Source: Actibacterium naphthalenivorans (GTDB lineage Bacteria; Pseudomonadota; Alphaproteobacteria; Rhodobacterales; Rhodobacteraceae). Taken from it: a DNA stretch of 64,000 bases. Below are positions 62,489-64,000 of the stretch, one piece after another. Location of the stretch: positions 186,001-250,000 of the forward strand of contig NZ_JACIEQ010000005.1 of NCBI RefSeq assembly GCF_014196965.1, in the 5' to 3' direction. Positions within the stretch are counted from its first letter, which is position 1, and every line of letters begins with the position of its first letter. A program made the translations under genes and the position numbers. The notes under the pieces were generated by a model. It searched no databases. It had not been told where the DNA came from and worked only from the letters and a program-made list of their open reading frames with translations.

Positions 62489-62836
62489 CTTCCCGTCTCC
62501 TTTTTTGCCCCGCCCGATACCATGAAGGGTCGTGGCCCCCTATGGCACAAACATGGCGGCGACGCGCCGGTTTCGGGTCAGACGGTGCCGCCACGGAAAC
62601 AGTTTATTTTCAACGAGGGGCTATCGCACCCGCAAGCCCTGGACCCGGGCGCAGGCAGCCGAAAGAGACGGACCAACAGCGCCCACATCAGAGCGCCCGC
62701 CGGAGTATTCGCAGGTTCGGCCCGCCCGAAGAGGTTTTCGGCACGCGAGAGTCCAGGCGACGGGTGGTCAGCGCAGCCCGATCGGGGCCACATTCCGCGC
62801 TAACCGCCAGTACGGAAGCCCGCAGGCTCCAACATG
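62489..62836. other. Intergenic region between mipZ and tRNA-Ser
   Basis: About 350 bases with no credible gene. Short frames (for example 62522-62803 plus and 62578-62793 minus) lack domains and good starts. The antisense tail of the recombinase reading frame covers 62768 onward. It may be the core-genome flank of the integration site. Confidence 0.5.
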
Positions 62837-64000
62837 TTGATATTCGTGAGATCTGCTCTTGTTATTATAGAGCAAAACGGGATAAACCCGGCGGCGGAGA
62901 CGTGGCCGAGTGGTCGAAGGCGCTCCCCTGCTAAGGGAGTAGGCGGGAAACCGTCTCGAGGGTTCGAATCCCTTCGTCTCCGCCATATTACAATCACCCC
63001 CGAAACCACCACCTAACGCCCTGAACGGAAACGATAATTCCGGGGTTCGAAACCCTTCATTTCGGACATATGCCAACCGCTCGGAAAACGTCAGTCTGAG
63101 CACGAGTCGCTGTAGTTCAAAGCGACCGCTTTCCCAGACTTTACAGGGGTTTAGCAGGAATGCACTGGCGAGTTCGAACATTTGCTCGAAGGGCCGTGCC
63201 GGGCGACCTGATCCGTCTGCTTTTTCGACAATAAGCAGTTTTTCCTGCTCCAGCTTGCCGATCTTCTTCTCATAGGCCTGGATGACGGTTTTCGTTTCCG
63301 CATCGATCAATCGGTTTAAGAGTGTCTCAACCTGCGTATCGATTTCCTTGATCTTGACCTCAAAGAGCGCAGCCTGTTCCTTGGCGCGACCCAGACGGAT
63401 ATCCCAGATATCTGCGAACATGGCTTTGGCAGCAGAGAGCACCGAGCGTGAGGGCAGTACGCCTGTCAGAAGATCGGCAAACTCATCTTCGATCACATCG
63501 CGGCGGATAGATTTTCGGTACGAGTCGCACCCTTTGTTGAAGCACATATAATAAGGATGCTTCTTGCCTGTTTTGCTTTTCGACCAGCAGGAGGTGAGCG
63601 GGCGATCACAGTCGCCGCAGACCACGGAGCCGCGAAGAGGAAAATCCTCATTGATATCTGCGCGGGCGGCAATGCGCGCGCCTTCTTTGATGCGTTCCTG
63701 GATGCGTGTGTAGGTCTCGAACGAGATCAGCCCTTCATGCTGTCCCTTCATCATGCGGATGCCCCAGGCAGGGACTTCGATGTAACCTGCATAGTGCGGG
63801 CGAGTGAGCAGTCGAATGACTTCTTCGTAGCGGACAAATCCACTTGGAAAACGACCGGCAAAGGCGGGTTCAGATTCCAAATAGGTCTTCACTTCGCTTT
63901 GCGACGCAAAACGCCCGTGGGCGAATCCATCTAGCGCCTCGGAAATGATCGTTGCAAGCGGCTCGTCCCGCACGAGGAGTTTGCCATGTCCTGCCTTGCG
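62768..64000 (-). CDS. Serine recombinase (resolvase/integrase), partial; frame runs into tRNA-Ser
   Basis: The frame enters open at the right edge and continues to a stop at 62768; the N-terminal catalytic resolvase domain lies beyond the window. Visible are a Recombinase domain (HYAGYIEVPAWGIRMMKGQHEGLIS), a zinc beta-ribbon (CGDC...C...C around 63510-63630) and a long coiled coil (AKEQAALFEVKIKEIDTQVE). The usual C-terminal motif VRNEGFRTPELSFPFRALGG is at about 63000-63070. From about 62990 down to 62768 the translation is antisense to tRNA-Ser and the flank, and is unlikely to be original protein sequence. The natural C-terminus was probably lost or replaced by integration. Confidence 0.85.
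   Translation of the reverse strand, partial: RKAGHGKLLVRDEPLATIISEALDGFAHGRFASQSEVKTYLESEPAFAGRFPSGFVRYEEVIRLLTRPHYAGYIEVPAWGIRMMKGQHEGLISFETYTRIQERIKEGARIAARADINEDFPLRGSVVCGDCDRPLTSCWSKSKTGKKHPYYMCFNKGCDSYRKSIRRDVIEDEFADLLTGVLPSRSVLSAAKAMFADIWDIRLGRAKEQAALFEVKIKEIDTQVETLLNRLIDAETKTVIQAYEKKIGKLEQEKLLIVEKADGSGRPARPFEQMFELASAFLLNPCKVWESGRFELQRLVLRLTFSERLAYVRNEGFRTPELSFPFRALGGGFGGDCNMAETKGFEPSRRFPAYSLSRGAPSTTRPRLRRRVYPVLLYNNKSRSHEYQHVGACGLPYWRLARNVAPIGLR
62837..62865 (+). promoter_or_regulatory. Candidate promoter of tRNA-Ser
   Basis: TTGATA (62837-62842), 17 bases, TGTTAT (62860-62865), ending 30 bases before the tRNA 5' end, in a locally AT-rich stretch. Confidence 0.5.
62896..62985 (+). tRNA. 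tRNA-Ser (anticodon GCT)
   Basis: A class II tRNA of 90 bases. The acceptor stem GGAGACG pairs with CGTCTCC (62975-62981), then discriminator G and an encoded CCA (62983-62985). The anticodon arm CTCCC-CTGCTAA-GGGAG puts GCT at 62930-62932. The extended variable arm and the T-arm GAGGG-TTCGAAT-CCCTT are present. It reads AGC/AGU codons. Its 3' end is the probable integration site of the element on the right. Confidence 0.97.
62960..62988 (+). repeat. tRNA-Ser 3' end segment with a near-copy downstream (copy 1)
   Basis: This 29-base segment, from the T-loop through CCA and ATAT, matches 63043-63071 at 24 of 29 positions. The mismatches fall at positions 10, 17, 19, 22 and 24. It is the probable attachment core of the element. 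Confidence 0.5.
63043..63071 (+). repeat. Near-copy of tRNA-Ser 3' end inside recombinase gene (copy 2)
   Basis: Matches the tRNA 3' end at 24 of 29 bases, 54 bases after the first copy, within the codons for the VRNEGFRTP motif of the recombinase. It may be an old attachment-site relic or a chance likeness to conserved codons. Confidence 0.45.

Follow-up and report, generated by a model that had tools for sequence, protein, structure and literature searches.

Large serine recombinases at tRNA 3' ends: an attP apparently inside the recombinase gene and a probable native C-terminal tail at the far end of the element

The DNA analyzed here is a 64,000-nucleotide stretch of the Actibacterium naphthalenivorans genome (the window), close to whose right-hand end a gene for a large serine recombinase runs into a tRNA gene. 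ARAGORN places a host tRNA-Ser(gct) gene with an encoded CCA end (62983–62985) at 62896–62985 on the plus strand. On the minus strand, the recombinase frame has no stop codon from position 64000 down to a stop at 62768, and the translation of 62768–63070 agrees letter for letter with the peptide quoted in the original prediction, AETKGFEPSRRFPAYSLSRG. Translation and tRNA call thus bear out the prediction that the frame continues in antisense across the whole tRNA gene. The contig extends 958 bases beyond the window, and the complete reading frame comprises 586 amino acids, starting at an ATG 528 bases beyond the window end (L003:2528). Assembly of the contig stops about 430 bases upstream of this start; in the close relative G130 there is a break some 300 bases away from the match, perhaps at a repeat. 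A gene of about 100 amino acids with the motif LWxIVxxFVDLGFG lies on the minus strand 525–926 bases past the window end (L003:2525–2926). A simple pattern detects such a gene in 38 of 74 loci, with its end at the recombinase start or close to it; three examples had no match in Pfam and two had none in PHROGs, and we regard it as a candidate directionality factor. The features of the locus are as follows.

62984–64000, minus strand: element-encoded part of the recombinase (Pfam Resolvase, Zn_ribbon_recom and a sub-cut-off Recombinase match; AlphaFold model)
Past the window end, minus strand: N-terminal part of the recombinase, with the start codon 528 bases beyond 64000
62896–62985, plus strand: host tRNA-Ser(gct), the insertion target, with downstream sequence unlike that of 29 other tRNA-Ser(gct) loci
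62983–62986, no strand: CCA plus T, likely crossover core, by analogy with the GCACCATCT and CCACCATC shared by attL and attR in the genomes G181 and G285
62986–62984, minus strand: codon ATG, expected parting point of the two tail versions (position computed)
62768–62983, minus strand: host-derived tail of the integrated recombinase, made of antisense tRNA-Ser and upstream host sequence
62962–62967, plus strand: tRNA T-loop GTTCGA, presumed zinc-domain motif of attB, from the GAAC spacing in relatives
62986–63031, no strand: putative P half of attP, within the recombinase coding sequence, from the spacing of 46 (or 43, 47) bases in 75 of 77 loci
63014–63016, minus strand: TTA leucine codon in the P arm, with DNA-level constraint suggested by codon bias in 61 loci
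63045–63050, plus strand: second GTTCGA, a T-loop look-alike in GFRT codons, 83 bp from the tRNA's own T-loop

The protein has the resolvase, recombinase and zinc-ribbon domains of a large serine recombinase, and the Pfam search returned serine recombinase domains only and no tyrosine recombinase domain. PF00239 (E 1.3e-25) and PF13408 (E 5.7e-10) match the window protein; PF07508 falls just under the cut-off (19.9 versus 21.1 bits) and exceeds it in two relatives. Residues R21, V22 and S23 are invariant across 28 rows, and we read S23 as the catalytic serine. In an AlphaFold model built with 28 sequences (mean pLDDT 83.8, pTM 0.47), helices 361–409 and 413–439 form a long pair resembling the coiled coil of the zinc domain, the last helix spans residues 500–505, and residues 509–514, just ahead of the junction with the tRNA, are predicted to be disordered. 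The best Foldseek matches in the PDB are complexes of serine integrases with att sites (best E 4e-20), with modest leading TM-scores (0.2–0.5). As the body is predicted to stop short of the junction, a split at this point should leave its fold whole.

A search with the recombinase body (E ≤ 1e-40) found matches in 51 of 292 genomes of the order and in 23 of 385 genomes of the class, the window's own included. We examined the 88 loci that hold the C-terminus, 61 from the order and 27 from the class sample, having dropped the duplicates L099 and L100 (the same as L035 and L022) and L293 and L298 (the same as L095 and L071). In 53 of the 61 and 24 of the 27 loci, or 77 of 88, the conserved C-terminal end is followed immediately by an antisense tRNA; these counts are not independent, the loci sharing descent. 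The tRNAs represent 17 anticodon types in the order sample and 15 in the class sample. The spacing from the end of the conserved body to the tRNA is 46 bases in 59 loci, 47 in 11 and 43 in five, with 58 and 67 bases at one locus each. In 76 of the 77 tRNA-abutting loci the recombinase frame enters the tRNA without a stop; a random 15-codon stretch is expected to be stop-free about half the time, and by this sequence-based comparison the open run exceeds chance. Since the frames enter the tRNA unstopped, both the frame and the length of the tRNA-derived tails depend on which tRNA is entered and at what spacing: two tRNA reading frames are used, according to spacing class, and the tails end anywhere from directly past the core to more than 300 amino acids further on. 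The comparison of C-termini in relatives that had been proposed as a check thus supports a fusion of the recombinase to the tRNA by insertion; the fusion is, in these relatives, a property of the recombinase subfamily and not of one event.

Eleven of the 88 loci lack a tRNA at this place (L013, L023, L030, L034, L070, L083, L084, L093, L281, L288 and L294). At L034 the frame runs into what we take for an IS, and L084 belongs to a tandem pair of elements. In this tandem (L019, L084 and L124; G075:C1, about 1,043,000–1,062,500), the two elements are of different spacing classes, and the inner recombinase reads out of frame into the other element's tail and meets an early stop.

The element ends were located with the sister genomes G181 and G285, which serve as reciprocal empty sites for each other's elements. 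Their alignment, with host flanks 97 and 99% identical, reveals inserts of 25.3 and 24.6 kb. The only sequence common to both ends of an insert is GCACCATCT in G181 and CCACCATC in G285, that is, the CCA end of the tRNA and a few bases. In these two elements, proven by empty sites, the common core of attL and attR is thus 8–9 bp, to which the far end adds a shifted T-loop mimic. The filled and empty sites imply, as far as sequence can tell, that integration between attP and attB has taken place. The sequence directly past the tRNA at 29 other tRNA-Ser(gct) loci, compared by eye, is unlike that of the window, and together with the G181 and G285 empty sites this divergence places the crossover at the tRNA 3' end. 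Four elements measured from core to core are 20–29 kb long. In G181 and G285, the two elements examined for this, a PF03432 relaxase lies near the far end; carrying both a relaxase and an integrase, these elements look mobilizable. No relaxase was seen for the window's element, which is cut short by the end of its contig. Among the other empty-site pairs, G056/G005 and G015/G019 gave approximate ends only and G007/G009 none. For the window's tRNA-Ser and for a second element of the same genome, at a tRNA-Thr on contig C3, comparison with the same-genus genome G292 and three others yielded no attR, because conservation between the genomes is lacking past the tRNA. Nor did we find the displaced copy of the tRNA 3' end foreseen at the right-hand end of the element, either in the window's genome or in the 12 element stretches searched; the one partial match among these 12, in G079, is the far end of the G079 element.

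At the far ends of the G181 and G285 elements, a short open reading frame of 48 and 40 codons, respectively, leads from the core on the recombinase strand, and the two frames are similar in sequence. Tails of this type, which in most cases follow the pattern SNxLFxxLxxWExxL, occur on the recombinase strand in 23 of 40 element stretches, 1.3–42 kb from the stretch end over all elements. An initial listing and pattern scan covered the plus strand only, and seven tails were chosen by eye for their mutual likeness among many chance pattern hits in three phases. Of the 23 tails, 22 went into the final profile, which found the 23rd (G075_L085) by itself; some tails are weak alone (E up to 0.14), and the opposite-strand control reached a best E of 0.11. 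No tail was found in 17 of the 40 stretches, many of which are only 5–20 kb long, and G255 carries a tail remnant with a stop. A scan of further genome contigs added bodies and far ends in named species. Thioclava marina has both ends on a single contig; in Oceanibium sediminis and Sinisalibacter aestuarii, body and far end share a contig and a strand, separated by about 19 and 22 kb, respectively. For two 46-class tails there is no family in Pfam or PHROGs, and one of the 47 class has sub-threshold Pfam matches only. In the window's genome, the C3 element at tRNA-Thr(ggt) has a tail, with 29.1 kb between cores, and was the only one found there by a profile of 11 tails. Neither this profile nor a pattern search of the genome, with 22 places and no tail-like sequence among the translations inspected, revealed a tail for the window's element.

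The phase of these tails largely matches that of the recombinases. Recombinases with a spacing of 46 or 43 bases cross the core as NTG GNG and those with a spacing of 47 as GGN GCN, and the tail fits the phase of the neighboring recombinase in 21 of 23 cases, 17 of the 46/43 kind and four of the 47 kind (for G075_L085, whose core is altered, phase was judged from the bases after the core). If phases were random, at least 21 fits in 23 would have a probability of 1e-8, in a calculation that treats related loci as independent. The two misfits are the tails near L018 (G248) and L072 (G235). Immediately ahead of the G248 tail, and in frame with it, stands a decayed C-terminus of a recombinase of the fitting class, to which this tail may belong; for G235 no explanation was found at the locus. 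Contiguous in-frame junctions of body and tail occur naturally at L242:2857–3228, at L183/L184 (G248) and at L178/L179 (G056). All three follow decayed recombinase C-termini, and we read them as putative fossil attP-like junctions.

The spacing of a short motif around the core suggests how target sites may be recognized. GAAC, the T-loop GTTC read on the other strand, is separated from the T of TGG by 20 bases in all 18 tRNAs at attL and by 25 bases at all 20 far ends, five of which came from a pattern allowing 23–26 bases. In the Listeria integrase and its relatives, the zinc-domain motif is described as shifted by 5 bp between attB and attP (PMC3783163), and the distances of 25 and 20 bases amount to the same shift, at one half-site and by sequence. 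This spacing suggests that the tRNA T-loop is probably the zinc-domain motif of attB, which would explain the use of many tRNAs.

DNA-level constraint is also apparent on the P side, within the gene. In the GFRT look-alike, the arginine codon ends in A in 52 of the 52 loci that have this arginine (61 examined), compared with 17% elsewhere in these genes, and the leucine codon downstream in the P arm is TTA in 52 of 60 cases (61 loci), compared with 3% of leucine codons elsewhere. The window's look-alike lies 59 bases from the core in direct orientation, outside a normal attP half-site. Base agreement with the T-loop was scored in 81 of the 88 loci: base 59 of the look-alike equals that of the neighboring tRNA in 59 of 81 (28.4 expected on shuffling), base 57 agrees in 45 of 81 (36.5 expected) and base 58 hardly varies; the comparison is no clean test, because related loci share both look-alike and tRNA.

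By sequence, then, the relatives have an att site inside their own recombinase gene, which is split at that site. In the mechanism that we propose, attP would be embedded in the coding sequence of the recombinase, with 33 to about 65 codons still to go to the native stop. In the circular form, the frame would pass from the recombinase body via the core into the conserved native tail. When the element inserts at a tRNA's CCA end, the gene would be cut at the core, so that the body reads into the antisense tRNA and the native tail is left behind at the far end of the element. The zinc domain would read the tRNA T-loop as the attB motif, letting relatives use many tRNAs. Given an attP inside the gene and a far-end tail that fits its phase, the circle should encode a longer recombinase, whose native tail is swapped on insertion. 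Such a circle would presumably form and express the long protein; no intact circle form was found in the plasmids, phages or viral contigs searched. A P. inhibens plasmid copy considered as one proved to be the remnant of a recombinase, located behind an IS21 element and next to a tRNA-Arg, and L260, L261, L265 and L269, which resembled wider matches, are in our reading far ends preceded by open frames. Only in the circle can tail and body be translated together, so the tail probably serves a step at that stage, for example integration. The tail would thus aid integration or another circle-stage step and be dispensable for excision, which the integrated form or another copy would carry out.

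The tail itself can be read in other ways. The far-end frame might be a separate small gene starting at or near the core, with the open recombinase frame incidental to it. Cores of the 43 and 46 classes do supply an ATG, GTG, TTG or CTG at the right place, and for two 47-class members (G192 and G065) the host sequence offers an ATG a few codons ahead of the core. Tails of the 47 class, however, read GGT GCN at a core without a start codon and still follow the recombinase phase in four of four cases (one with an altered core), which speaks against a free-standing gene; only one of the 77 recombinase frames, moreover, stops before the core, against the half or so expected of random 15-codon stretches. 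We consider a separate gene very improbable. The tail might also be conserved merely as the P' arm of attP, with an inert peptide. Its first 11 codons (numbered from the codon after NTG), which hold the T-loop mimic, are the most conserved DNA, and codons 27–39 are under little coding constraint, with 9, 8 and 10 of 13 columns variable at the three codon positions. Codons 12–26, however, lie at more than 33 bp from the core, and in 12 tails of one clade most of their variation falls on third positions (8, 3 and 14 of 15 columns). In the same 12 tails, pN/pS over codons 12–39 is 0.51 in frame and 0.85 and 1.38 in the other frames, and N, F, L and nearly always W and E are kept across 14 members, distant ones included. 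These patterns argue against a role as a DNA arm alone, a reading that we regard as improbable.

Two further alternatives accept the split and concern what becomes of the protein. The split may be real but neutral, the body alone being fully competent and the swap without regulatory effect. The predicted body does end ahead of the junction, and the integrated enzyme seems tolerant of many tails, because those derived from tRNAs differ so widely in length and frame; the coding constraint on the native tail, on the other hand, suggests that the tail acts while attached. For neutrality, we find the balance even. That the tail swap is a functional switch, a view that we consider less likely than not, would be the converse; a specific form of it, in which the native tail of the long circle form favors integration and the body form stays put or excises only with a partner such as the small gene at the recombinase start, we hold to be doubtful. 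It has also been considered that the host-derived antisense tail is useful in itself, giving an adapted enzyme with each insertion. Every tRNA-abutting integrated copy has such a tail, except the one that stops before the tRNA, but the use of two tRNA frames by spacing class, the ends ranging from just past the core to more than 300 amino acids later and the lack of any shared property seen among the tails leave this idea with almost no weight.

The best explanation overall is, very probably, an attP inside the recombinase gene and an insertion that splits off the native tail. That this split architecture holds in the family we consider highly probable, and for the window's own element it is likely; by analogy, that element would have the same far end as its relatives. 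The original proposal of a host-derived tail in the integrated state and a native stop in the circle thus gains support in relatives, the C3 element included, from far-end tails, their phase and empty sites; for the element in the window itself, no far end was found.

The proposed arrangement recalls several known systems. Large serine recombinases such as the A118/LI, Bxb1, phiC31 and SPbeta integrases have the same domains, the long helical pair and the 5-bp shift described in PMC3783163. In contrast to these enzymes, the recombinase here apparently has attP within its own gene, its attB half-site would be the acceptor end and T-arm of a tRNA, and its native tail would be lost on insertion. 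For the archaeal suicidal integrases of SSV1, pTN3 and pT26-2, att is described as part of the integrase gene, so that integration splits this gene (PMC8371274). Those enzymes are tyrosine recombinases, whereas the one described here is a bacterial serine recombinase; their fragments are reported to have failed to recombine in vitro (PMC8371274), and the serine recombinase, judging from its sequence, would lose a C-terminal tail only and keep its body intact. The same 2021 review calls self-disruption of integrases exclusively archaeal (PMC8371274).

In mycobacteriophage BPs, attP is reported to lie inside the repressor ORF, and insertion trims the C-terminus by 33 residues (PMC4557955). This integration-dependent immunity resembles the present case in its in-ORF attP and in an insertion that alters the fate of the protein; in BPs, however, the split gene encodes the repressor, and what insertion removes is a degradation tag, whereas here the split gene encodes the recombinase. 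Islander-type islands with tyrosine integrases likewise insert at tRNA 3' ends and spare the tRNA, according to PMC4383910. They differ from the present elements, where no displaced tRNA fragment was found in 12 stretches searched, crossing over takes place at the CCA and the two proven cases have a repeat of just 8–9 bp. The inducible Paracoccus phage phiPam-6 is reported to have a serine recombinase at a tRNA-Met, with a 17-bp repeat ending in ACCAT (PMC3925955). It could belong to this element family, though only as a lead; the loci of 64 viral contigs with the phiPam-6 17-mer showed no close relative. The passages retrieved from two serine integrase discovery papers (PMC10083194, PMC12884075) make no mention of a split at an in-gene attP, and among the titles and abstract openings listed from a largely open-access literature we found no description of a serine recombinase split at its own attP.

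We class the enzyme as a serine recombinase that may act like a mild suicidal integrase. If this is true, it would be a bacterial, serine-family counterpart of the archaeal self-splitting integrases, and it would account for recombinase frames that end in antisense tRNA. The two forms of the enzyme would also provide a natural paired test of the role of the serine integrase C-terminus in directionality. If the reading of the T-loop is right, these integrases are aimed at a near-universal motif. Should the switch reading hold as well, a single stretch of DNA would encode the enzyme, its target specificity and the switch, with recombinase and tail codons that hold tRNA-mimicking sites.
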